Assembly (NCBI RefSeq): GCF_963675165.1
Contig: NC_087393.1
Coordinates: 3,105,502 to 3,169,501 of the forward strand
Direction of reading: 5' to 3'
DNA from: Halichondria panicea
Taxonomy: Eukaryota; Porifera; Demospongiae; Suberitida; Halichondriidae
Length of the DNA: 64,000 nt
Below are positions 8,241-63,414 of this stretch, piece by piece (within the stretch, counting starts at the first letter, position 1; the number at the start of each line of letters is the position of its first letter). The notes under the pieces were generated by a model that saw only the letters and a program-made list of their open reading frames with translations, searched no databases and had not been told where the DNA came from. The position numbers and the translations under genes were made by a program.

Positions 8241-9246
8241 TTAGTTAATTGATATACCACTGTATCGTGATCCAACAGAGTCTCGTGAAAATATGCTGCC
8301 TGCACTCGACACTGAATCTCTTCTCGATGGAGTTCTTGATCCTCTCATTCTAATTTCGGATATACTTGGGTGGGGGGGGGAAGGAGACAGGTTTTCAGTG
8401 GCAGCGTAAAATCTGTCAGCAAAATCCTGTAGTTGTTTGCTAGCATGTCCTCGATTTTGTTTGAGGTCCTGGTTTTCTTCCTCTAGCTTTACCACTTTTG
8501 CTTCAAGGTGCAATCTTTGAAGTTGTTCCTATAATTGTCACAAAGGAAGTGCTCATTGTATAAGCTTATGCCACTTAACTCTACTGTATTCTCTCATAAT
8601 TATATCTAGCTTACACTAACCTCTTTCAGCTGTGTCTCCATTGATGATACTTTCTTCTCCAATACAAGCATTTTCCTTAGCAGCAATTGAGTTTGCTCAC
8701 TGTAAAAAGGAACATGAAAAACTTGCAAATTCATGCCTCAAATGTTTCTAACCTGATGCTGAATGTGTTTTCGTCTTCTGATCTTGGTCTAGATTGAAGT
8801 GAGTCTGAGCCACTCTGAAAATAAAATCACAAAGTTCAAAATAATTATGTATCTATATGTATAGCTAGATAATCTTTTAGCCAAATATAATTTCTCAAGA
8901 CTATTTACATGATTAAATCTATACACAAACTGAAAGCAGAATCTAGATAATAGACCTGGTTTCCAAGTGATGTGCAGTCCATATCGGATTTACTATACAC
9001 ACTCACCCTCTTCATAGCAATAGAGATTCCTGGTGATCTTCTGGCCACTAACAGTGGGGATCCCACGCCACTGTGTAAGTCCTCAGATTCTCGTCGCCCA
9101 ATTAGGTCAGAGCTGGATAGAGGACGAGGACGACATGCTCGTGATTCACACATCTCTTTGTCAGAAGGACAATCAATGAAACACAACTTCTCTGGCATAC
9201 TGTACTGTGCACTATTAGTCACACCGGTGTGTGTTCTGAATGGCAT
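8241..9246 (-). CDS. Small coiled-coil protein, unrecognised (239 aa)
   Basis: Four exons join in frame: 8956-9246, 8753-8814, 8621-8699, 8241-8528. The start is the ATG at 9246; upstream exons cannot be excluded. The N-terminal ~110 residues are polar. Residues ~118-185 form a predicted coiled coil rich in L, E, K and Q (QLLLRKMLVLEKKVSS, then LEAKVVKLEEENQDLKQ). The C-terminal ~55 residues are Ser/Arg-rich with RTPSRRDS-type phosphosite-like motifs. It starts only 174 bp downstream of the stop of the LIM-RGS-PX gene on the same strand and converges on PSME4 with 253 bp between stops. I do not recognise a family. Because an in-frame stop separates the two genes I treat them as distinct, but an alternatively spliced read-through from the upstream gene is possible. 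Confidence 0.7.
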
Positions 9247-9419
9247 GCAGTTTACTTTTGTCCATATAAATTATGATCTCATCCTGGAAATCTATAACTG
9301 TCAACTTCCTGCATGCATGTGCATGCATGTGACTTTCATGATCACAAAACACTGATTCAAACAAAACAAACTCAACCAGCTATATTAGGTTAGATGTATA
9401 ATTATGGAACAAAACAATA

Positions 9420-12400
9420 TTAAGACTGGACCCGACTGTCGAACGACTCGTCCTCTTTGTCAGTTTGTGTTTGTGTCAAGAATTGTTTGACTAGGGAACT
9501 GAAGGAGATCTCTGCAGACATGGCCAGCACACCCTGTAAGAAATTAAATAGCTATAAGTAGACATGCATGCAATACACAACCATTAAATTATTATACACG
9601 TACAATGTACAGTTTGTATTATATTATAGGCTAACTATAATTATACCAACCTGCAGAAAATGGTTTAGATCTCCCAGTCGCAGATGTGCAACATTCTTTG
9701 TCTGGCTGCGCCCAAAGAATATCTTCTTTGGCATAGGAGGAAAAGGAACCTCCTGGAAAGTAGCTTTAAGTTCTTGATGTAATGCGTAGAAATCACTGTA
9801 CCTACAACAATTATTATAATGATGAGAATGACAATGGAACAATTATTATTGTATGATGTCAAGAGTGGATAAGAGTTACTAGCTCGATCTGATCTATGCA
9901 TGACGCACTGTACAGTCATGCAGCTGGTTTCGATAAAGATCCCATGCATGCAATATACAAAATAATTATAATGATTTGCTACATTACGATGCAGTTTTCG
10001 TTACTTTCTTATAATAATAGCCGCAAGTCGACATAATTATTATTAGAAAACACTAGCTATCGTAAAATAATGACAATGTGCATGGTAGTGGTCCTGGTGT
10101 GATCATAATCGTGCTGTCAGTAGCATGCACTGCTTTAATTATTGTAAATTCCAGCTAGTGCAGTGGGGGAGATAGTGGGAATTAAGGAAAAGGAGAGACA
10201 GTACGTGTGTGTGCATGGGATAGTGGGACCAGGAATTAAAAAGTCATACATGTACTTGAGCGATGTAATTGCATGGGCTTGTTTACGAATCAGCTGCGGC
10301 TGAAATGCATCATATAATTGTTGAGTATAAAATAATTATATCAGATTGCTCGTGCAATTATATAATATATATATAGAGGTAGGTCCTGCCATTTCCAATA
10401 ATTAATTGCTTATTGCTAATAGTATGGCTAAGAGTGCAATATGGGATTAATAGCACGAGTAACAAGCAATGGCAAGGATACTAATTGTACGAGGCGTAGC
10501 CGAGTGCTATTAACCTTGCCAGTGCTTGTTATGAGTGCTATTAATCCTTTAATCGCATGTTGTCCTATTATTTACTGTGATTCGTACAGTGATTAATCGC
10601 GTATCAGTAATTACACGTCGTCATTAACGACGTGCAATTACTGCCTTGACGACCGCAAGTTCGAATAACGGCCGCGGCTAATTTTTTACTGAAACTGCAG
10701 CTAAACAGTCCTTAAAACTGCATCACAAACGATTAAACAATCAATAGTATGGCTACTCGTGCAATAATTATGGGATTAATAGCAATCACTGGCAAGGTTA
10801 ATAGCACGAGGCGTAGTAACCTTTCTAATCGTGTATGATGAAGTTCTCTGCAGTTTTTATTAACATTTTCTGCCGTGGCCGTTATTCGAAAACAATTTGT
10901 TGTCATTGACAGCGTGCAATTGCACACTGTCAATGACGACGTGCAATTACTGGACCGGATGTGATACGGGATTATAATTGCTGTACACTTTCCAGTCGCT
11001 AATAGCACATCATACGATTATCCCGTGTTGCACCTTACCCCAATACAATTTTCAGGAATGGGAAAGTATTGTGCAGAAAGTCAATAATTAATTGTAAGAT
11101 ATCATAATTATTAGCCTCGACTCTAGGCCCTTGAATCGAGGCCACTAAACTATAATTATACTCTATAGAAACTTGCAGTTTCCAAGGTGATAGTGTAAAT
11201 TTTAAACTATATATAGAAACCTGCAGTTTCCAAGGTGATAGTGTACATTTTGAAACATTTGAAGTAGTACAATGACACACCCTGAAGCCATATCCGTAGT
11301 CAGATCAGAATATTGGCACTTACCAAAACCACTACATTGTCATGAACTCGGTCATAATGGTTTTTAAGATACGATATCATAAAAAATTATACATACTGCA
11401 ACAATGTATCTAGTTAGAGATTTTAGGCTCATACATACCTTCGATAAACGGTGTACATACGATCATTCCTCTCCACTCTGATACAATAAACCTGCATCAA
11501 GGAAACATTTATGTGATACATACATACTACAAGTGCATGGAATCTCTCTAAGCAACCATGCACTTACAAAGCAATGAAACCAGAACAACCAAAGGCTCGT
11601 CCTGAACTACGTATACTAAGCAAAAAAATTGCTAGGTGAAGAAAAAGTGATTCACAGAGCGTCTCTATATAATTATACCTCATTTACATCAATTTGTATA
11701 GAGGCCTCCCAGATGATGTAATTATTAACTTATATAATTATATCGAACTCTTTGCAAAAATATGCCTACTTAAATAAACGACCATTCCCTCTTTTGCTTC
11801 GAAGTTCTTGCACAAGAGTATTTTGACCCGATAATACAGAATGAAGAGTTTGAGCATGCGCAGTAGCTACATGTTCACAATTTAGTGAAGAAAGCAGAAA
11901 GTAGGTAGTAGCTAGTTAGACTCTACCCCTTGCGGGACCATGCAAGATCAGACGTATAAGTATCTCTGCGTGCCCTTGCAATTGTATATGCAGTTAGGGA
12001 ACAACTAGTCCTATATGCATAGAACAACCAACACAAATCTCAGAACAAAGTCATCACCCAATGTTGCAGGTTACCTTGCCTTGATTGGTTTGCTGCCTTG
12101 ATTGGTTTGCTGAATAAATACTGATAGCTCTCGATCTAGGAGTATGACCTACAATTTCAGCTCTCTTCTCACTCTTCCAATAGCTATTGTTCTAGTGCAG
12201 AGCTAACTACTAAGTAGAGTAGCAACACTCGATCCATAAACAGTTTTGCTACGCACTCTTCTGAAAAGGATGCAATGGCTGTTGTATAGATATTAATTTT
12301 ATTACACAGCCACGAGTGCCACATGGGATATATTGGCTCAGTAGTGCGTACGCCTGAGGGCCGCAGCTAAAGGCCTCGAGGACAAATGTCACTAGCAATA

Positions 12401-15400
12401 TCTAAATAAACTCCCGGCCTATAAAGGTAAAGTTTGCTATTACAGTGGAGGGTGGGCTTTAGGCTTAATTTAGAGGTCACTGCAACAGCAGTCACAGTCC
12501 ACTGTCACAGCAGGGTGAACTACACAGAGGAAGTCATGTAGTACCCATGCCAACTATAGGCGGCTAAAGCAGGTGAACTGTGCCATAATTATTATGGCAG
12601 ATTTGGCACACTGTTTTCTTTGATCTAAGGCGTTAAAATGTAGACTCACAAGCCGTCACTGTTTGCACAGCCAACAGTAGCCTCGGTCCCAGGCCAATTT
12701 TTTTTTAATAGAACGAAGTTGAAAAATACGGCCTGGTATTGATTGTATCTGGGCGTGGCAGGAACCGGAAACCAAAGCAGAGATTCTTCACATTTTATTT
12801 CCTGTCATATTTCACCGTATAAGTTTAATACCGTAATTTAGCTCCGTGTATGCTCTTAAGTAACTGAAATCTAGCCATAGATTATCTAGCAAGCTAGCTA
12901 CTGCAAGTTTAAGTTGTTCAGATTAACGTATACATTGTCTGCTTCACAAGAAGGCCCCACTCTCATTGCAGAACAGGCCCAGCTCTTGTCAGAAGGAAGA
13001 AACGTCTTTGCCATAGTTTTCAACATGGTATGGCAAGTCTCTTGCTTTCACTCACTGCCCTTTGTGATGGACTACAAACTAGTAGGTAGGACCAACACTG
13101 CCGGCCCTTGTCGACAGGTGTGTTGTTCTTGCAAATCTCTCTGCTTCTTGTTTTTTGGTTCCTAACCACGCCAATTAAGATACACACCCAGATACAATCA
13201 ACACCAGGCCTAGTTGTCGGCCTAGCTAGAAACAACTCGGCCTGGAATCGAGGCTAAGCCAACAGTAGATTGGTCAAACTTTGTATAGAATCTTATATGT
13301 TGCACAGTCAGCATATCAGAAAAGAGTCGAAGTGGCTGTGGTTTTCGTGACTTCAGTCCACTGCATGTAATACTTAAATTTAGTTGACTAGATCGAGTGT
13401 CTAGTGCTACGTCACTATCAATGATATTGTGCTAACTGCATGCGGTCTAGCCGCTTGATTGCCACAGATATCGTGGCAAACGTTGCAGAGTCTCACAGAG
13501 TTTGCCCAGTCTCTTTTTGTGTGCAAAGGTGCTGGCTTGCAAGTATAGTTAAAATGCAGCAAATTTATTAACCTAAATTTAGCAAGGTTTACTGATATAA
13601 TGTGATACTACTTATGCACTCACACAGGAAGCAAGTAGAATAGCGTAATTATTATATGGGGTGGTTATGCCGTACTATTAATATCAACAACCAACATTAC
13701 ACAACTATGCACCCAGACAATTAAAAACGAATGACACCACACACTTATACTTACATAAAACTTTGTCTGGAGATGTCTCTTGTCAAAGCTGACGACAGTG
13801 GCTGCCATGGGTCTACTAGTATCTGTTGTATTGACTTCCCTACAAAAATATGTGAATATAGTGATATATATAATAGTGCATAATGATCTATACGTACAGA
13901 CTTTCAACACACAGGTGTACGTGACACCCAAGAACTTGTTACTTCGATCAACACAGTCAGGCAAATTAATGTATAAGAGACTATGGCTATAGACCATCTT
14001 GGCATGCTAATGAAAACTACTCTTGGTAATACATACAGACTCTAATCAACTACATGCGCCGATAATCATTCGCTCTCATTGACGCGGAATAGTGCTCATA
14101 TTTTTTGTGATGCGTAAGTATTATATAGCACATACTGTACATCAAAGAAAACTCTGACCTATGTTTTTGTCTTTTATCATTGTCCCTAGTAACAAGGGCT
14201 CGCAGGTAGCTTTGTCCATCTTTGCTTTGCAGGAATCGAACCGAAACAGAGTTTTCCATTATTTCATATACGTAACTTTGAGCCTCATTAAATACTTCTG
14301 TGAAAGTAAATGAAGTTAGAGGTATATAAAGCGCACACTCTGTTGTGTAGCTGGCTGGCTATAAATACACAATCAACTGCATTACAAGTACATTTGTATG
14401 TAGCATTGTGAATGTTCAAATTGAAACTGATACAAATTGTACGGATTAGTGAACCTTGACTGTGTGGTGTAACTTGTACTTCAGCAACTATGTGATCTTC
14501 TAAAGTCTTCGGTAGGCCCACCGGCAGCTCAGCATAGTAGCCAATATATTTGAGCACTACATAATCAAAACAAAATAAAGTGTCAACAGAAAGGTCATGC
14601 ATACTTGTGGATGCCTAGCTGGGGAGGGTGGAGGGGGTGGGGGGTTGCCTGAATTGGGGGGAGCTGGCCATACAATTACAATAAGATCTATACAATATAC
14701 ACAGTGACAATTATTAGTTTAATGCACACGACTATCCACTATAGTCTCAACGTTCGTCTGGTGAGCACCCTTTGATGTGAGGGTTAGACACATACTGTAT
14801 CTGGAACCATTGTTTATACTGTTTAGTGTTGCCAAACAACTAACCCACTCGTATACTCACCAAAATCCCACAAACAGTGAATATGAAAATATGTTACAGT
14901 AATTATGTACACATCAAGCAATTAAGGTACGTATGTATAGACGTCATAAATACTACGTACTAATATGATGGGCGAACAGTTTTGTATCCTCTTCATTCCC
15001 ATCAAAATACTTGAAGTGTTCCACATCAAGCCAAAAGAGGAGCAACTCAATTGAAGAGTCTTCAACACAAAAATTCATCAACTATAGAAAATAAGCCACA
15101 AAACATTGCAAAATGATTGATGTACGTGCGCTGTAATATACTGTTAGCAGTAACAATCAAATACTATAAATTATTATGGGTTAAGCTGAGGTTATAAGAC
15201 CAATATGCAGAATCGCAATTGGGTCAGGTGGTTTAACATTAACCCGTGACAAACTAATGTGGTGGCATACCAAGGAGACTCCTAATTCATCATATAGAAT
15301 GGCGCGCAAGGATGAGAGACTGAGCTTAGGGTTCTTCCTGGCGGCAGATGGACTGTCACTCAAGCATATTGGATACGAAACAGATGGACGCAGTAGAGTA

Positions 15401-16723
15401 TGAAACCTAAGCAGCAGCAATATTACATCAAATCAACTAGCAATAGTCACGTACAACAACGCAATAAAGTTGGCAAGAAGCCATAATTGGTGTAAGATAC
15501 ACCACCGTCACATGTGAATGGAACGTACCTGGCAGATGGTAAGTCAGAGACAGCCTGTGAGAGGGACTCTAGACGGGGAGGCAGGGTGTGAAAATCAAGA
15601 TCCTACAGGAATTAGACAAGAACAAGCAGTAGTACCCGACAGTATATCATCACAAAAATAATATTTACACACACTTTTCTTTGATCGAGACAAAGGCCAA
15701 ACTAAATCACAATATCAGTAAACAAAACACATTAGACAACATCATTCATACAATCTTTTCAGCAGGCTATCACACTACCTAGCTCAGCTTTCATTTACGT
15801 ACGCGAATAACAATGTTGCCAATGATGACAAGTCAATAGCTGCAGCATGGTACTATACACAACGTTCATACAGTAAATTAGAAATAACATACTATATTCA
15901 GGGGAGGTTCACTGAGTGTACGGTGAAGCTTTTCGTGTTCAGGTTTTGTCTCTACTTGTATTCTTCCACCTCTATCAGGCTGATTCCATTCGCTGCCAAA
16001 CACAGGGGTTACACACTCGGCACAGCATGGTTCACTTCCACTGGCATATACTTTGCTTAGTTTGCTGAACATCTATACGACAACGGATACAATAAAATTA
16101 TGGATTTACGCACCCACTGAAAGGTACCATAATTAGTATGAACACTATTCTGTAACAATAATAGATCTGTTAACCTTTTGGCAATGACAACATTTGAGAC
16201 ATTCCTCATGGAAATCTTTGTTGAGAACTCCGACATGGCCACTTGTAATCGTCCTTCTACATATCTGACAGGATGGGGAGCAAAGGGGGCACAGAGGGCC
16301 GCCATTCTCGAGGAGCAAGAACTGGCTGGTTGGGTCAACTACCTGACCACACTCAGCACAGACAAAGCATGAAATATGATACAAGGCTCCCTCAAATGAG
16401 ACAACCAAATGTGAGGAAGTAAACAAAAGCATGCAAGAAGAGCAAGCTGACCCATTGATGCTGACTTCAGACTGGGTATCATTTGTACGTTTGATAACGG
16501 TGAGATCACAAGCTTCAAAATCAGACGTTGTTAATGTACTTAGCTTATCGCAATCCACTTGAGCAAAAGGTTCACTTGTAGACCGATTCTTGACGATACA
16601 GGACCTCGGGCTCTTAAACATACGAGGAGTCACTCCACCACCAGTGCCTATTGACCTCACAATTGTAAAGTTGGCTGCTGGTCGATCGTGCCAGTAGGCA
16701 TTCAGGGAAGCTGATTTTAACAT
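9420..16723 (-). CDS. LIM-LIM-RGS-PX domain protein (567 aa)
   Basis: Eleven exons sum to exactly 1704 nt and join in frame: 16175-16723, 15893-16072, 15529-15602, 15271-15406, 14961-15081, 14455-14556, 14159-14297, 13755-13839, 11439-11491, 9651-9801, 9420-9533. Residues 94-148 form LIM1 (C94/C97, H116/C119, C122/C125, C145/C148). Residues 152-203 form LIM2 (C152/C155, H172/C175, C178/C181, C200/C203), with LIM2 split by an intron. Residues ~296-421 match the RGS fold (FCVEDSSIELLLFWLDVEHF, AQSYVYEIMENSVSVRFLQS). Residues ~443-552 are a PX domain with YCIRVERND, the phosphoinositide-binding VYRRYSDF and the PFPPMPKK loop. RGS domains bind Galpha, PX domains bind phosphoinositides on endosomes, and LIM domains bind proteins. 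The inferred role is a membrane-recruited adaptor linking G-protein signalling to other partners. SNX13-type RGS-PX proteins lack LIM domains and have PXA and nexin domains, which are absent here. Confidence 0.85.
10423..11010. repeat. Two adjacent copies of a palindrome-rich MITE family (AATAGTATGG ends)
   Basis: Within the 1.6-kb intron of the LIM-RGS-PX gene, two related units (about 10423-10750 and 10745-11010) share AATAGTATGGCTA ends, GGGATTAATAGCA and the core CGTGCAATTACTG. The core is flanked by short inverted repeats such as CACGTCGTCATTAACGACGTG. Related copies lie at 56495-56790 in BBS1 intron 1 and as a short remnant at 30541-30610. No coding sequence is seen. Confidence 0.65.
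11492..13754. other. Long intron of LIM-RGS-PX gene with repeat debris
   Basis: This is a 2.3-kb intron between the exons carrying PX strand 1 (ending in KFY) and PX strand 2 (starting VYCIRV). It contains a reversed fragment of dispersed repeat A (about 12150-12240, antisense of the segment reading AGTTAGCTCTGCACTAGAAC). It also holds an imperfect inverted pair of GGCCTGGAATCGAGGC-type sequence near 12665-12745 and 13195-13255. No additional exon is needed for frame continuity and none is seen. Confidence 0.5.
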
Positions 16724-17960: not shown

Positions 17961-18658
17961 TTTGACTGTCGCATGGTGAAACAGGTTAGGTACAGTTGAG
18001 ATTTCCATATTGTCACTGCTGGTCACCTTAAACGAGCATGCAGAGTATGAAAGGTCGTGCCCATGCACAGAGCTCTTTTTCTACTCAGAATTCTGGAAGT
18101 GATCATTGCCAACATGGCTTTTGATAATACCAGGAGCACATGAGGAGATCCCCACAAAAATTACCCGCTATACAGTACTCACTATTTTAGATCAAGCGTT
18201 ATCAGCCGCCCTGCACATGTACAGAGCATTTAATTAATGGGCGGAGTCCAACCAACGCTGCGCTCACGCTAATTAGCACATGCAAACAAGAAAATGTAGT
18301 TAGACGATAAATTCTTGCATAGTAAGACGCTCTGACCTCCACAAAATTTTAACGTAGGCATGGCTTACCGGAACGTATGAATACAGTACAGGCAATGAGA
18401 TTTTTACTCACAAAAACCACCGTTTCTCGAGTTGAACGAATTTTTACCGCACAAAACTTACCCGCTATACGGTACAATGAATAATGTTAGCAGCACATAG
18501 TGGTTATTACATGTATATGGCAATGTTTGTACATAGCAGGACGATATCAAATCGGTGTAGTAAGACGCCAGTTGTGTTAGCTGTCAACATTTTAGCCTTG
18601 TGACAGATAATATTAATCTGTCCGAAAGTGTCTCATCTTTTTTTCACCCAGATTTGCC

Positions 18659-19279
18659 ATGGCTACATTTTCGGAACCACTGAAGGCAATAGAGGCAATC
18701 GACTACTTTCTAGTATTGGATTTTGAAGCAACATGTGAGAATAAAGTGAAAATGAAACCTCAAGAGATAATAGAGTTTCCTGTCCTCAAGGTCAATGCTA
18801 AGACATTGAAAACAGAGAGCATATTCCATACCTATGTTCAGCCGACTGCTAACCCTGTACTTACCAGGTTTTGCATTGACCTTACTGGCATCACTCAGGA
18901 AATGGTAACTGGCCAGCCGATCTTGAAAGAAGTGCTGGAGGATTTCCATAAGTGGATGAGAGACAATGGCTTACTAACGCGTGATGTAAATTCTTGTTTC
19001 GTCACCTGTGGTGATTGGGATTTGAAAACCATGCTACCTAGCCAGTGTAGGCACTTTAAGTTGCCGTTTCCAGATTACTTTCTCAAGTGGATCAATATCA
19101 AGGATTTGTATTCTCGTGTAACCAAAGAAAGAGCAACTGGTATGCCCGGCATGCTCAGAGGGCTAGGATTGGAGCTGGATGGACGTCACCACAGTGGGAT
19201 TGATGACAGCAAAAACATTGCCAAGATTCTAGCTAAATTGATCGAACTTAATTTTTCTACCCAGCCTACTGCAGAATAA
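18659..19279 (+). CDS. ERI3: ERI3-type 3'-5' exoribonuclease, single exon (206 aa)
   Basis: This is an intronless CDS with a strong start context (GCCATGG). It is a DEDDh exonuclease of the ERI1 subfamily. ExoI is D21/E23 in FLVLDFEATCE, ExoII is D121 in TCGDWDLKTML, and ExoIII is H178 and D183 in HHSGIDDSKNIAKI. Phrases such as DYFLVLDFEATC, PQEIIEFPVLKVN, FVTCGDWDLK and HSGIDDSKNIA match ERI3 better than ERI1, and there is no SAP domain. Family enzymes trim structured RNA 3' ends using two metal ions; the cellular substrates of ERI3 are less clear. All catalytic residues are intact, so it is probably functional. Being intronless among intron-rich neighbours suggests a retrocopy or lineage-specific intron loss. 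No poly(A) tract or target duplication is evident. Confidence 0.93.
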   Translation: MATFSEPLKAIEAIDYFLVLDFEATCENKVKMKPQEIIEFPVLKVNAKTLKTESIFHTYVQPTANPVLTRFCIDLTGITQEMVTGQPILKEVLEDFHKWMRDNGLLTRDVNSCFVTCGDWDLKTMLPSQCRHFKLPFPDYFLKWINIKDLYSRVTKERATGMPGMLRGLGLELDGRHHSGIDDSKNIAKILAKLIELNFSTQPTAE

Positions 19280-53100: not shown

Positions 53101-56100
53101 AAAAGGGGGGGCAGTTTGAAGAAAATGTTTACTAAAAAAAGGTCAACAGTTTTTTTTAAAGCTCAATCAGTGTAACTTTTCTTATCACGGATTGATTGAT
53201 GGCAGTATGACATACATAGTAGCAGAAATGGATGAAATCTTGCTCTTCAGCTTTAAAAGTCTACAACTAGTTAACTAGAGATCGTCTGCTATTCTGCATG
53301 CTGCAATGATTGCTGCTCTAGCCACACCCACTTCGTGAGCCAGAAAGGGGGCACGTGCCCCTTGTGCCCTGCACTGGATCCGCCACTGATCAATGTGTGT
53401 ATAAAAGCTAGCTATTAGTAGTTTTATGTTATGTAGCTTTGGCACCTCCACCGAGGCATCAGCACCCGCGGTGCTTTCATTATAGATAGAAGCGCTTTTC
53501 AATAAGGTAATAGTATGAGATTAAGTAAACTACAACTGTATGACAAGTTATGGAGGGCCATAATAATGTGTACTTTCGATGTACATGACGTACTGATACA
53601 CTTTACTCACGTCAACTCGCAGAGTGTGCATGAGATACTTGTCCCTGAAGATCCTTATCTCTTTATTTCTCATGGCCACAATCACTGCCTTTACCCCCCG
53701 GGCCTGATAGTCTAGCAGCTCCAGTGCTGTGATTGAGTCAGGCAGCTTGAAGCTCCACTGACGTTTGCCCTGCATGGAGAGATAAAAAATGAACATGTTT
53801 ATGCTCGTCAAAGTGTGTATGATCTTCAACACAAGCAGCGACTGTTAAACTTAAGACTACCAACAAAAGAGTACCTTTGTAGTGTAGCAGGAGAGAGAGT
53901 TGTCCATGCACCCAAGCACAATCTGTTTGTCCATCTGGAGCAGGCCACACGGCTGTGACCCAAGAGCAATCTTGTACTTGGGTGTCCGCCCTCCTCTCTT
54001 GAAAGTGTAGACAGATGCATCTCTGCAGGCCACTGATATCTGGTAGTCCACTTCATAAAGCCCACTCACACTCAAAAACACTGGGACTGCCGGCAAAGAC
54101 ATCTGGAAGGCAGGATAACAGTGGTTTCACAAGTTTGCTCAAAAAAACTAACTGTCCACAATGTAACTACCATATATATTTGTATATTGGTGTATTTCGA
54201 GGCTATAAATGCATGGTTTTTGCGGATTAAATAACTGCGAATTTAGTATCGATGCATGCATGCATGCATGCTGCAAAAAGGCTGCTATTCCACAAACATT
54301 AAATCCGCGAAAACCTTTCTAAAGGCATTTCCGCGAAAATTTATACTCTCGAAATATACCTGCTATACAATATTCATTCACAGTCATAATAGCCAGAAAA
54401 GTTGGCGGTGCCCTAAATTTGACCCTTTGGCAGTGTAATTTAGATTAGCCGTAAACGAAAACATTAGCGTTTTGCATGGGTCAATTACTACTGACAAGTG
54501 CGGTTATAAGAACTACATGTATATAGCTGTCTTTTAACTAAAAATGATCATCGGGTGGGGTCAAATTGCAAGTGAAGTTGTTAGTTATAGTCTAGGGGCC
54601 AGACATTTTCTCAGGCAAAAAATGATTGTAGAAAAAACGTCTGGAGACTCGTACAACTTTTCCGTGTGCTCTTGGAATGTACTTTAAAGACTCGTGCGAT
54701 TTTGATGCTTAAAGAACAAGTAGATTGACGCACATGTAGTATGTAATATTGAGTAAAACTCACATGACACGCATAATATGTATGTATTTCGTTGGCTCTA
54801 CCCAAATTCCACTAGATCACGCAAAATCGTTGCAAAAGTATCCAGCCTACTATTCTCAGCTCTCAGAATAGGTCTGGTCCCCAGAGAGTAGCCTGATATC
54901 AAACCGTACTAGCATCGATCCGTGGACATGCAAGAGGGATGTACGGGTAATACAACTCGAGATGTTAGCCTGAAAAAATATCAGGCTTGTCTTGAGGCCA
55001 GACCTATTCTGAGAGCTGTAATTTAGAAAAGGACCCCTCTGGATCTCACCCCACAAGACAATAATTTTGGTATTTGGGGTTTACTCTGACTTGCATACAA
55101 AGGTTCTCTATATAAACCAATCAGCATCTTAAAAAGCTACTCGCCCTCACAGACACTACTGTACTGGTTCTAGTATTGCTACTTTATTCTTCACCACAGC
55201 CTCGATTAAACTGCAGGGAAACATGGATTGTAATTTCCTTTATCTATGCTACTACGTAGAAGAGGGAAGCCAACACTGATTTATATTCCATGGATTGTAT
55301 TAAGGACATACACAAGATCCCATAGCACCTTGGTTAGAACAGTGAAGGCCTCAGGGTCCAGGATGTAGAGGCCCTTGTTCTCAGTGCCCGCCACTAAACA
55401 GCTGACAGCATCGTCCTCTGCATGACTCTTCTTCAGGGTGCTCAGGCAAGTGATGGTAGATTGACGTTTCAGCGGGATATGCTTGAACACACTCACAAAT
55501 GGCTGCAACTCACTAGGATCCAATTGAAGGAACCTATAGTGCATGCAGTTACATCACCATATATTCGCATGTGAGCAAATAAGAAGCTGCTCACTTGAGT
55601 GACCGAACAGAGAGTGGGATATCAGCACCTTCATGATTCATACTCGCCAGTGCTTCCCTTAGTATGACTGGGTCGATCTTATCCTGCGATTTCAAACAAA
55701 AAAATCATCATCGGTGGTAGCAATCACTTTAGCATTGACATGAAAGTAAAGAATTATTACCAGTTTGGTTTCACGTACCTCTTTGACTTGAGCCCAGAGA
55801 TCACATTCAGTACTGTTCAGCTCAAGTGAGGGGAGATTAAATTTGAAATATGGCCTAAAGTTCTTGTAGATGTATACATTAGAGCCAGAGGCAATAGCCA
55901 CAGCTGGTGTGTGTGGGTCTGTAGTGTCCATGTAGAACGTACATACTCCGGTTGGCAGGTCTAGTAAAGGAGTCTCAAAGATCATCTCTGTGCCTACAGG
56001 CACATGTACAACAATAATAATTACACGTCAAAAGTATAAAGTCAGAGTGTCATGGGAGACTCACGCGAAGATACACACCTTTGTAAACTTTGAGCTTAAT

Positions 56101-57660: not shown

Positions 57661-58078
57661 GGCTTCTTTAGGCCAGAAATTTGAAAGGGGTGACACCTTG
57701 GCCTACGCCTACATTTATTTGGAGGCGTGATAAGTTCTGATAGAGTGCAAAGTTCTTTGCTCACGTTACCATGGATACCGAACAATGGTAAACAGTTATG
57801 GAAATTAATCGCTTACTTTGATTTAGCCTCCTTCACAAGGCCTTCTCTTCAGTGCGGAGGCTAGCTTTGATTCTGCAGTATGATCAATCTAAGAAAAATC
57901 CAACTGTCAATCAGCTGTGCCAGCTCAGTGCCAGCTCAGCAAAAAATAGTGCGCACGTGACATGTCCAACCAATTTGTAGTTTTTAACTAGACGATCAAT
58001 ACAATTGTGATGTCTGACACTTTATCTGGATATGATCGATCGCATGGATGATATGATAGATTTACTCGACTAAAGAAG
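57661..58078. promoter_or_regulatory. Divergent BBS1/ACTR8 promoter with X-box and E-box
   Basis: 418 bp lie between the two ATGs. At 57765-57778, read toward BBS1, GTATCCATGGTAAC matches the RFX X-box consensus GTHNYYATRRNAAC at every position, 105 bp upstream of the BBS1 start. A CACGTGAC E-box (57954-57961) lies nearer ACTR8. No TATA box is seen. Confidence 0.7.
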
Positions 58079-60681
58079 ATGCCTAGACAGAAATCAGAGA
58101 AAAGGACTCACTCTGAGGCTTTTGGAACTAGTGACTCTCAGCCACAACAGCTTTATGATGTGAGGAAAATGCAGCTGTTACATGCAATAACTAAACTCAT
58201 GACTAATCTTCACCAGGATGACCTCCCAGCCAGTGATGCCCAGCCCACCATAGTGCTGCAGATTGGTTCCTCTACTCTGACACTTGGCTTTGCGACTGAC
58301 CCCACTCCCCAGTCTATCCCTCACATTATTGCATATAAGGGGTATGGTCTGACTACGAAACCCTCAAATAAGAGTAGGGAAGGTATCAGAGACGAGACAC
58401 TGGTGTTGGATTTCCCATGGATAATCACTGTGAGTACCATCAGGGTCGGAGTTGCATTTGTGTGATACAATACCAAATCTTTAACCTACCTTAGCCTGCC
58501 CTTGAGGATGCGAGAGATTCTTCTCTGTCCAAGATACAAGAGAGCCTCGAGTTGTTGAGAGCTGGAGCAGGTATACACGACACAGAGGTGAATGTGAGGG
58601 AGTACCTTGCACACAACTCACGGGTACAGCCAGAGGCCAGAGAGAGTGAGGAACTCTCGATGACTGATATCTCTGCTCAACCTCGCTGTCTCATTGGAAA
58701 TGAGGTTCGCCACAGCAGAAATAAATGGCAATTGATTGAAATATTTTGTGCCGAGCAACATTTAGTGCTCAATATTCGAAACAAACTGCTCCTCTCCCAT
58801 GCTTTTCTATCGTTTTCCAGGTACTGTATTTGCCTCCTGGCTCTGGGTACACAGTATACAGACCATTGCGATACGGACAGTTGAACTGCACCAACCATGA
58901 CTCTCTGCCTCAATGGGCAGCACCCCTTTCACGCAGTGCCCTACTGAGCATGCTTGAAGACCTATGGACCAAGGCTTTTGAGGAGTACCTGCAGATTGAC
59001 AAGAGAGACTTTAAGGTTTGTTAGTGCTTATAAAAAAAATGGCCACATTATGGGTGGGGCCGGGGGGGTTTACGAAGTGCTGCTCAGTAGTTTTGTAATA
59101 CATCAATTTTGTATCTATACATAAGTATAACTGTTTGCAGTAGACTGCGATTGCCAATTAGCATTTATTTTATTATATATATACCACAGAATCACCGTAT
59201 CGTGTTACTTGTATCAGATGTGATTAACAGAGCTCTGTTCAAAGAATTCATGAATATCCTGCTAGTAAAAATGGAGTTTGCTGCTGCCTTTTTGCATCAG
59301 GTAGTAAATCTACATGCATGCATGTAGTTGTTGTTTCTCATCTGTTGGCTGTAGCAATTATCGTGTTTATTGAAATAATCATGCGTAATGTGTCTGTCGT
59401 CTAGGAGTCTGTGTGTGCTGCATATTGTGCTGGTATGGCTTCTTGTTGTGTGGTCAATGTTGGTGATGAGGTTACTCATATTTCTTGTATTGAGGAGGGA
59501 ATGTCCAATCCTAACACCAGGTAACGCACATTAAATAATTAATGTAATAGAGCAATTGCTATGGCTACACTTACAGGCTAATTCTTCATTATGGTGGCAG
59601 TGATATCACTCGACTTTTCTTCTCCCTTCTTCAAAAGGTTAAATTACCTATATCACTCTCAAATACAATTAGCTTTGTACTTATTGTCTCCTCACAGACT
59701 AAGTTCCCTTATTCGAAATGTACCTCTGAGAGTCGTTTGGACGGTGTTTTGATTCAACAATTGAAAGAGACAGTATGCCACCTTGATGCAACTATCTGGG
59801 GTGTGAGGAACTATCAGTTCTCTGTCATGAGTCCCCTTCCCGGTCGCCTCTTAGATTACGAGATAAAACTATCTGATGAAGGTATAATTGCAGCAATGGG
59901 TATGTTCTTCCCGGCTGCATTCTGTCTGCCAGACTACACTTTTCTAATGAGAGGTCAGCAGCCACAGGCACCAGAGAGAGAGGATTTGTTGGAAGAGTGT
60001 CTAGACATTCCCCTGGCCCAGAGGCCCGTGGAGCAGAGTGAAAACTTGACTAGTGAGGAGCAGCTTGCAGGGATGTTTGTTGGTCATCCCTTGAGGCCAG
60101 GGGAGGTGGGGTTACCAGAGGTGACACGGCGCATAAGACGTGTAAACAAAGGGAGAGTGCTGCCTTTGGATCAGGCTGTACATCTTAGTATCAGCTGTAC
60201 AAGTGAGTAACTAAACGAATGCACTGTTCCATGAATCAGATGTTGTTCTATATATATTAGACTTCACATTGCAACTCTCAGGTTCTCTCGAGTTGAAGGG
60301 CAAGCTCTATTCTAGTATTCTGCTTGTGGGGGGAGGTCTCTCCTTTCCTGGCTCCTCGAAGATGCTGCAATCTCAATTGGAGCGAAACTCACCGCCAGCC
60401 GACAGTATTGATGTCTACTCTAATGTTAGGGTGAGGCCAAAAAATACATGTACATGTAGCTGATCAAGTGGTCAAAGTGATGCGTAATGAGAAAGTGTTT
60501 AGGCTGAGAGGCATTTAATTCTTTTTATAATATATAGGAGCTGGATTCTTCTCATATTGCGTGGAAAGGAGGGGCTGTGCTGAGTTGTTTAGACACTTGT
60601 CATGAGCTGTGGATAGACAAACAGGAGTGGGATTTTAGTGGTGTTCGGCTGCTGAGAGAGAGAGCACCATTCCTCTGGTAG
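58079..60681 (+). CDS. ACTR8: ACTR8 / ARP8, INO80 chromatin-remodelling subunit (613 aa)
   Basis: ARP8 is a nuclear actin-related protein in the INO80 complex, forming the ARP8-ARP4-actin module that senses linker DNA. Nine exons sum to 1842 nt in frame: 58079-58429, 58495-58704, 58821-59015, 59190-59300, 59405-59520, 59577-59637, 59698-60202, 60282-60430, 60538-60681. Key stretches are the phosphate-loop-like IVLQIGSSTLTLGFATD, QESVCAAYCAGMASCCVVNV, LILHYGGSDITRLFFSLLQK, CHLDATIWG, YSSILLVGGGLSFPGSSKML, IAWKGGAVLSCLDTCHELWI and the C-terminus LLRERAPFLW. The human protein is 624 residues; the insert after residue ~400 is somewhat shorter here. The start is the first ATG after the promoter and gives a basic N-terminus (MPRQKSEKR). 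Identity is secure. Confidence 0.97.
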
Positions 60682-61009: not shown

Positions 61010-63414
61010 TTAGTCTAAGAAAAAAATGTTGGTGAATTCTTTCTGACACAGTTTTCTTACTTCCTCTGTAAAAATAATAGTGTGTGTTTGTGTGCAGTGA
61101 GTGTTAGTTCGGCAATTACAAGTCTACATACATTCGGTAAAACCCCTCCTCTGAAGGTAAACAGCGATATGAAGGCCAGGCACCTAATAGTTAGTCTACA
61201 AAACCTCAATAAAGGTGACCTGTGTATAAACGCTAAAACTTAATTTGTATGTTCCCAAAAGTGTAACATGGTTCCACATATTTTCATTACATGAGTAATT
61301 AGGGTTTCAATTGTATGTGCATGGCGTCCCTATACATGAATTGTACGTGGTACAAAAACCAGAGTAAGTCACTGAAATTCGCCAGGCATCAATACTTGTC
61401 AGCTGCATAATTATACAAAATGAGAAAGGTTCTACACACCAACAGGTGGATGGTTAGTAGATGGCCTTCCATGTGCATGATCATTCGAAGAAAAAAAACT
61501 GCCAATAGTTTGATTTTTGGTACAGCGTATTATATCTCTAGAAGTACACAGCTAGAGCTAATTAGCAGACACATACCTAGATAGAGTACAGTATATGGCG
61601 GACCAATCGCTTGCAAAGCTGAGCTAGAGTCGTTTGTGCATGACTATTGTAAAGTGCCTAGTCAGCAATGAGCCCATGCACCCACCCTAGCAAGGCTGAG
61701 CCACCTGTTGCTGTTGGATCAATCTCATTTTGTTTGTGCATTGTATGCACTTTTAGCCGACGAGTAATGCTGCCACCCACCATTGATCTCAGCAAAGTTG
61801 GCACTCTTCTGATTGAGGACCACAAAAAACCTCCGATGACCCGACTTCCTGGTGACCACCCATGAGTCCCCTAGTGTACGCATGATTGTTTCCCCCTCCT
61901 CTATACTGTCATACTCTGAGTTTATCTGAGTAAAAACGAAACACATAAGCAAGAGTGAAAGGTACTTACATACTCTATGAATATCAAAACTAAAAAACAT
62001 TTGCAATGTGAACGTTGCTAGGATTGCCAGGAAAAGAAAAGCGTGAAAAAGCGAAGAAACAAGAAATTCGGCGAGTGCATAACTCCAATCCGTTACAACT
62101 TCATTCACATGTACTGTTTCAATTTTTTATTCGTTTTGTGCTTTTCCTGGCCAATCCTTCAGTAATTTTTATCATAATAATTATAGTGAATTTTTTGCAA
62201 CGAATATGAATGTCTTAGGCACACTACATACATTCATAGCACCCACTTATACATGTAGCAGTGCTTTCCATGAAACCAAGTTTTACAATTTACACTTACA
62301 TCAGCTAGCAGCTTCATAGCTTCTGACAAAATGTTCACATAGGTTGAACGTCGTGAAAGTAAAGGGGACTTTACTGCGAGGTTCATCTCATTAAAGTAGA
62401 TGAATCGATACTGGGGGTCCAGGCTGCATGTAAACACATGGAAATTATGTCGGTAACAATGATAAAAATTTGAAGTGTGGACACATTACTGCATGATCAC
62501 TATAATTTGTACTCTTGGCAATTACATAGTCATACATGTGTTACGTACATGTAAAATGTCATTTACATTAGGACTGAATGGTAGCCTAAGAAAAGTACCA
62601 AATGTGTTGATGCCGCCTCATTGCAATGGCTATACTGTAATTCAGTATTCTTCATGGGCATGGGGGACTAATAGCTATCATGCGCTTTTTGCTAGCGTAT
62701 ATACATCTACTTACATGTACATGTACTTCTAACAGAAAAATGCCCTTTCATACAGTACATGTAACAGACATAGTTGAGGAATGCGTTTGGTCATTATAGG
62801 GTTGTTTTGAATTATGGGATCTACATGGGTACTTAATTTTCAGGGGTGGCTACTAAAGAGGAATCTTACTGTTATTCTACTACCCAATTCGATTATTACC
62901 GTATAGAGGTGGGGTAAATTTTCGTGGGGCTTAATTTTCGCTGATTTCGTGGGTTAACTAGCAATTCTACACGAAAATTGTTCTCTAATTAGCTATAACG
63001 TGCAAAGATTAAAGGCATGGCTTCCAGTAAGCAGTCATTCCACTAACATTGTGCAACGAAGTGCTTTTAGAGGCCATTCCACGAAAATACATGTATAAGT
63101 GCATAGAAAATTTCACGCTATACGGAATTCGCGCTAACAGTATAATTAGGTTTATGAAGGCGCGAGCAGGCGCTTACATGTATATGGCCTAGCTAGCTGA
63201 GACTGACAACACAAACAGACAACTGACTACAATAATTATGCATTTATATTGCTCCTTCAGGACACCACTTGAGGCAAATTAACCTATATGTCTCACCCTT
63301 GAGGTTTAGATTTGTCTCTAAAGTCAGAAATCTCTCGGGAAATTTGTGCTAGCCTTGGTCCAAGGAAAGTGTTCAACCGCTTACAGAAGTCAGATGAGGG
63401 AGAAGCTTTCTCTC
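61010..63414 (-). CDS. CCZ1: CCZ1, Rab7 GEF subunit, C-terminal part (N-terminus outside or unresolved)
   Basis: CCZ1 forms with MON1 the guanine-nucleotide exchange factor that activates Rab7 on late endosomes and vacuoles. Four exons join in frame: 63297-63414, 62300-62423, 61781-61925, 61010-61065. They read SDFCKRLNTFLGPRLAQISR, then LDPQYRFIYFNEMNLAVKSP, NILSEAMKLLAD, INSEYDSIEEGETIMRTLGD, SWVVTRKSG...FFVVLNQKSANFAEIN and the terminus EEVRKLCQKEFTNIFFLD. This matches the C-terminal third of animal CCZ1, including the conserved FFLD ending. The upstream exon must end in phase 1; I could not identify it between 63415 and 64000. The gene converges on ACTR8 with 328 bp between stops. Confidence 0.93.
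62899..63125. mobile_element. TA-MITE in CCZ1 intron
   Basis: Ends CCGTATAGAGGTGGGGTAAA and inverted CCGTATAGCGTGAAATTTTC; TA precedes the left end. The interior shares AGAGGCCATTCCACGAAAAT and AGGCATGGCTTCC (inverse of GAAGCCACGCCTT) with 35603 and 52435. Confidence 0.7.

Follow-up and report, generated by a model that had tools for sequence, protein, structure and literature searches.

A gene with LIM, RGS and PX domains

Between positions 16723 and 9420 on the minus strand of a 64,000-nucleotide stretch of the genome of the sponge Halichondria panicea (NC_087393.1, positions 3,105,502 to 3,169,501, the whole of which we call the window), there lies a gene whose predicted protein carries two LIM fingers, then an RGS domain and finally, a PX domain. 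Rebuilt from the sequence, this gene has 11 exons, which join into 1704 nucleotides (nt)—567 amino acids plus a stop codon—without a frame error; all 10 introns have GT-AG ends, and the splice phases are consistent. An initial annotation of this DNA had given the same exon count and the same two lengths, and the rebuild reproduced them exactly. Is this one protein, and what might it do? In short, the gene model is well formed, its known domains stand in an unusual order, and a new combination of them is plausible.

A search of the 567-residue model against Pfam, with E values up to 0.1 considered and each profile's own curated cut-off applied, returned three families only—LIM, RGS and PX—and their scores are far beyond chance. 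The LIM profile matched two stretches (best at residues 94-147; 2.3e-16, 60.2 bits against a cut-off of 22.9), RGS matched residues 300-413 over profile positions 1-112 of 117 (2.4e-14, 54.2 bits against 23.9), and PX matched residues 470-551 over positions 4-83 of 84 (1e-17, 64.9 bits against 21.6). The two LIM fingers, full RGS domain and full PX domain of the initial annotation thus all stand above their cut-offs. NCBIfam gave two matches, both far below their cut-offs.

The LIM part begins in exon 1 (16175..16723, residues 1-183), which holds the start codon and an N-terminal tail as well as LIM1 and the greater part of LIM2, and which was recovered over residues 1-185 when the whole protein was searched against the genome (131 Mb in 39 contigs). 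LIM1 (16280..16444, residues 94-148; Pfam and a genome match on the window's own contig, C17:3121781-3121945) lies wholly within that exon, and LIM2 (16013..16270, residues 152-203) runs across intron 1 into exon 2 (15893..16072, residues 184-243), which supplies its last two zinc ligands and then a linker. As read from the model, all 16 zinc ligands are present, eight per finger: C94, C97, H116, C119, C122, C125, C145 and C148 in LIM1 and C152, C155, H172, C175, C178, C181, C200 and C203 in LIM2. Among solved structures, the LIM part is closest to ISL-1, LMO4 and LHX chains.

The RGS fold and the lipid pocket

The RGS domain (14221..15312), placed by Pfam, by a solved-structure match and by alignment, is spread over four exons: exon 4 (15271..15406, residues 268-313), which carries the last of the linker and the RGS start, and exons 5 (14961..15081, residues 314-354), 6 (14455..14556, residues 354-388) and 7 (14159..14297, residues 388-434), the last of which ends the domain. 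Its nearest relative among solved structures is RGS12 (4.8e-7 over residues 299-418); SNX13 is at 0.054. How an RGS domain deals with Galpha depends on a few side chains, and passages of PMC8252600 name N128, N88 and D163 as the critical contacts of RGS4 with Galphai1. We aligned the model with RGS12, RGS18, RGS6 and CG5036, together with RGS rows from the sponge's own genome (loci L006 and L007 were left out). Leucine stands at the N88 position (exon 5), glycine at N128 (exon 6) and serine at D163 (exon 7), that is, all three contacts are replaced; the glutamate at the E87 position and the arginine at R167 (exon 7) are retained. The RGS4 numbers are assigned here to the alignment letters that we take to be theirs.

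This loss is not general in the animal, because its canonical RGS domain (L002 plus L005) retains all three contacts. A partial RGS domain (L003) retains N88, an RGS domain that looks axin-like by eye (L001) retains N88 and has the other two changed, and an RGS domain of the SNX13/14/25 type (L004) retains none of the three and, like the model, has leucine at the N88 position. There are 42 Galpha matches in the genome. With three critical contacts replaced, activity as a GTPase-activating protein (GAP) appears unlikely for the model's RGS domain, and docking or sequestering appears more likely. There is a precedent for an RGS domain as a docking module of this kind: the RGS domain of SNX14, according to part of PMC7956473, binds Galphas without GAP activity. 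Of the coupling to Galpha signalling that the initial annotation had suggested, then, the RGS fold is there; normal coupling through GAP action is weakened by the three replacements.

The PX domain (9471..13808, residues 445-551), placed by Pfam and by a solved-structure match, is also spread over four exons. It starts in exon 8 (13755..13839, residues 434-462), where the alignment to PI3K-C2alpha begins at residue 445, and continues through exon 9 (11439..11491, residues 463-480), exon 10 (9651..9801, residues 480-530; Pfam PX match at C17:3115152-3115310) and exon 11 (9420..9533, residues 531-567), which adds the C-terminal part, a tail and the stop codon. Among the best 60 of 120 solved-structure matches, PI3K-C2alpha is nearest (1.2e-10 over residues 445-557) and SNX14 comes in at 1.1e-5. 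PX domains that bind phosphatidylinositol 3-phosphate (PtdIns3P) follow a rule, set out in part of PMC6449406: an arginine and an aromatic residue at the join of beta3 and alpha1, a lysine in the PPK loop and an arginine in alpha2. By direct string search and solved-structure alignment, we find R480, Y481, K506 and R521 at these four positions, all within exon 10 with its RY pair, its PPMPKK loop and its helix alpha2; 19 residues separate RY from the PPK loop, and K506 and R521 align with the lysine and arginine of a CISK-type PX domain. For the first two positions of the rule, we presume that arginine and an aromatic residue are the right residue types. Because it retains every one of the four residues that a PtdIns3P-binding pocket should have, the PX domain likely binds this lipid and targets the protein to membranes. 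The phosphoinositide targeting that had been predicted earlier thus gains from a pocket that is apparently intact.

A proposed membrane scaffold and its rivals

We put the chance at roughly one in two that these parts, encoded by one gene, make a peripheral membrane scaffold, in which the PX domain would sit on a PtdIns3P membrane, a non-GAP RGS domain would dock a partner and the LIM fingers would recruit others. By binding PtdIns3P, the C-terminal PX domain would bring the protein to an endosomal membrane; through H488 it might bind other phosphoinositides too. The middle RGS domain, with its fold kept and its contacts for GTP hydrolysis gone, would serve as a docking or sequestering module, and its partner would most likely be a Galpha, bound without GAP action, as a review describes for SNX14. 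At the N terminus, the LIM pair would recruit cytoskeletal or signalling proteins. We infer the membrane site, the binding partners and the loss of GAP activity from sequence comparison.

Several observations weigh against this scaffold. RGS12, the nearest solved relative of the model's RGS domain, is a working GAP; the loss of GAP activity is read from an alignment of remote sequences, and other residues could compensate for the three that changed. H488 sits at the position of the secondary lipid site, which is nevertheless doubtful because few basic residues follow it. Finally, no AATAAA or ATTAAA hexamer was found from the stop codon down to 8800, and a further minus-strand open frame (8908-9270) starts about 150 nt downstream of the gene; for these two reasons, the 3' end of the gene is unsettled.

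That open frame is exon-like by eye, with a donor near 9009, and a second one on the same strand (8244-8528) looks like a coiled coil; neither has a Pfam match. A neighbouring gene, or another 3' end of this one, might account for them.

What else might the protein be? The RGS fold might dock something other than a Galpha, in the manner of axin or GRK, which would leave the protein unrelated to G proteins. The lost Galpha contacts fit such a use, and axin, which uses its RGS fold for docking of this sort, provides a known precedent; no site for a partner is identifiable in the model, however, and we regard this reading as rather unlikely.

We find it unlikely, too, that the protein is an active Galpha GAP on endosomes, with the LIM and PX domains positioning it and the RGS domain switching off Galpha. 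A full RGS fold, RGS12 as the nearest solved relative, the retained E87 and R167 positions and a genome with Galpha genes all speak for this idea, but it must contend with the N88, N128 and D163 positions, every one of them altered and every one critical according to the same passages of PMC8252600.

A more basic doubt is whether the LIM and RGS-PX parts belong together at all: two transcription units might have been wrongly joined, the first of which, with exons 1-2 or more, would make a LIM-only protein and the second an RGS-PX protein. The exon joins inside domains are carried by the domains themselves (LIM2 over exons 1-2, RGS over exons 4-7 and PX over exons 8-11), and those without homology support are the LIM-RGS joins (exons 2-3-4) and the RGS-PX join (exons 7-8). 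Support is weakest for the LIM-RGS join, which runs through exon 3 (15529..15602, residues 244-268), a 74-nt piece of linker without homology. Yet joining exon 2 directly to exon 4 yields a stop codon, so exon 3 is required, and the codon-usage score backs it: this score ranks the model frame first of six in 10 of the 11 exons, exon 3 among them; the exception is exon 9 (53 nt), which lies within the PX alignment to PI3K-C2alpha. (The score was trained on 12 open frames of at least 250 amino acids from loci of the same genome. Their coding status is presumed, and three of them, L004, L016 and L024, overlap within a single gene, so we treat the score as supporting evidence only.) The minus strand has no AATAAA or ATTAAA between 16842 and 14723. 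From residue 184 to residue 315, which is itself part of the RGS domain, the frame contains no methionine codon, so an RGS-PX protein starting on its own would require a first exon from elsewhere. We therefore consider two units improbable, and we infer that the LIM and RGS-PX parts are transcribed together as one mRNA.

Least probable is descent from SNX13/14/25, with PXA swapped for LIM and Nexin_C lost, since its support—the same RGS-then-PX order and the leucine that the model shares with the SNX-type RGS domain of its own genome—must be set against a PX domain nearer to PI3K-C2alpha than to SNX14, an RGS domain nearer to RGS12 than to SNX13 and a separate gene of the full PXA-RGS-PX-Nexin_C order (the order given for the family in part of PMC7956473) elsewhere in the genome. 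That gene (C3:6675849-6678704; loci L004, L010 and L016) has all four domains on one strand within 2.9 kb, mostly in one long open frame. In the genome as a whole there are 13 PXA matches, on contigs C2, C3 and C15 and none on C17, and three Nexin_C matches, on C2, C3 and C15; nine of the PXA matches and one Nexin_C match fall within about 85 kb of C15 (677974-763112) and have the appearance of tandem copies. The initial annotation had compared the model with SNX13/14/25; the likeness is mostly formal, with both domains nearer to other families. These nearest-family calls are best matches among solved structures only, made with no tree, and by them, RGS and PX probably came together independently in the window's gene, which would then not be a cut-down SNX13/14/25.

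Genome setting and known relatives

The whole-protein search of the genome gave 13 matches, 11 of which are the gene's own 11 exons. Beyond these it hit only an open frame with LIM alone (E 0.0125) and a stretch of PX (E 0.069), so the search revealed neither a second copy nor a close paralogue. Among the matches listed, which are a lower bound and from which exon-split domains escape, every other LIM match is more than 20 kb from any PX or RGS match; the closest approach is about 25 kb, on C17. A donor for the PX domain was likewise not found within the genome, where exon-split PX domains would escape the search: a PI3K-C2-like motif pattern occurs only in the window's own exon (four loci overlapping that exon), L037 comes closest among the remaining PX loci (4.5e-5), followed by the SNX-type L024 (9.5e-4), and there is one PI3K_rbd match. 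The genome also has ten Wnt matches, as fits an animal.

Part of the long intron 9 is made up of a dispersed repeat with inverted arms (window 10417-10807). A 651-base query with this repeat has at least 129 genome matches, for which 40 of the 514 candidates were scored, and most of the long ones span query positions 151-408 at 87-95%. In a Pfam scan of the neighbourhood, 3 of 10 stretches had a match above cut-off: an RNase_T exonuclease (18617-19276, plus strand; ERI1-like by eye), BBS1 (55695-56027, minus strand) and an Intu longin-like domain 3 (61728-62126, minus strand). Two plus-strand stretches without a Pfam match (58052-58462 and 59551-60207) are, by eye, presumably pieces of actin-related protein 8.

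We found no LIM-RGS-PX protein in the open literature (5.39 million papers), a search that covered no eukaryotic protein database. A survey of proteins with FYVE or PX domains, published in 2010, names RGS and LIM separately among the partner domains of PX (PMC2837644), and a database could therefore already contain the combination. The LIM exon 1 (183 amino acids) gave 52 pattern matches in prokaryotic contigs, none of them confirmed, and no pattern match in viral contigs, neither of which is evidence of absence in animals; the exon 1 frame had no match in phages. For exon 10 (50 amino acids), none of 108 prokaryotic and none of 16 viral contig matches was confirmed, which again is no evidence on animals.

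If the gene makes one transcript, animals would have joined the RGS fold to a phosphoinositide-reading domain a second time, independently of the sorting nexins, and the protein would also be a clean test case for an RGS fold without GAP contacts. The surprise for a specialist is only modest, because LIM and PX domains are known with many partners. More tentatively, we suggest an undescribed animal family that did not derive from sorting nexins, in which an R12-like RGS domain, dead as a GAP, would dock on PtdIns3P membranes held by a PX domain like that of class II PI3K, with the LIM fingers as a link to the cytoskeleton.

How does such a protein compare with systems that are already known? 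The fungal LIM-RhoGAP proteins Rga1 and Lrg1, as described in part of PMC3914944, have LIM fingers N-terminal to a GTPase-regulator fold, and so does the sponge model; in the model, RGS-PX replaces RhoGAP, of which Pfam finds none. The LIM match to a stretch of Rga1 (52.0 bits, with an approximate Rga1 sequence) is nearly equaled by a LIM-only open frame of the sponge's own genome (48.9 bits), so kinship with Rga1 does not follow. RGS12, of the R12 subfamily, is the best match to the model among solved RGS domains, but the model lacks the Galpha contacts, and Pfam finds in it no further domain of what we take to be the RGS12 architecture. The model shares GR, K, VA, R, LN and LQ with the PX domain of PI3K-C2alpha; it differs in having arginine-tyrosine where PI3K-C2alpha has threonine-phenylalanine and, by Pfam, neither kinase nor C2 domain. 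Unlike SNX13/14/25, finally, the model has a LIM pair and neither PXA nor Nexin_C; like them, it has RGS and then PX in one protein, and in SNX14, as would be the case here, the RGS domain is without GAP activity.

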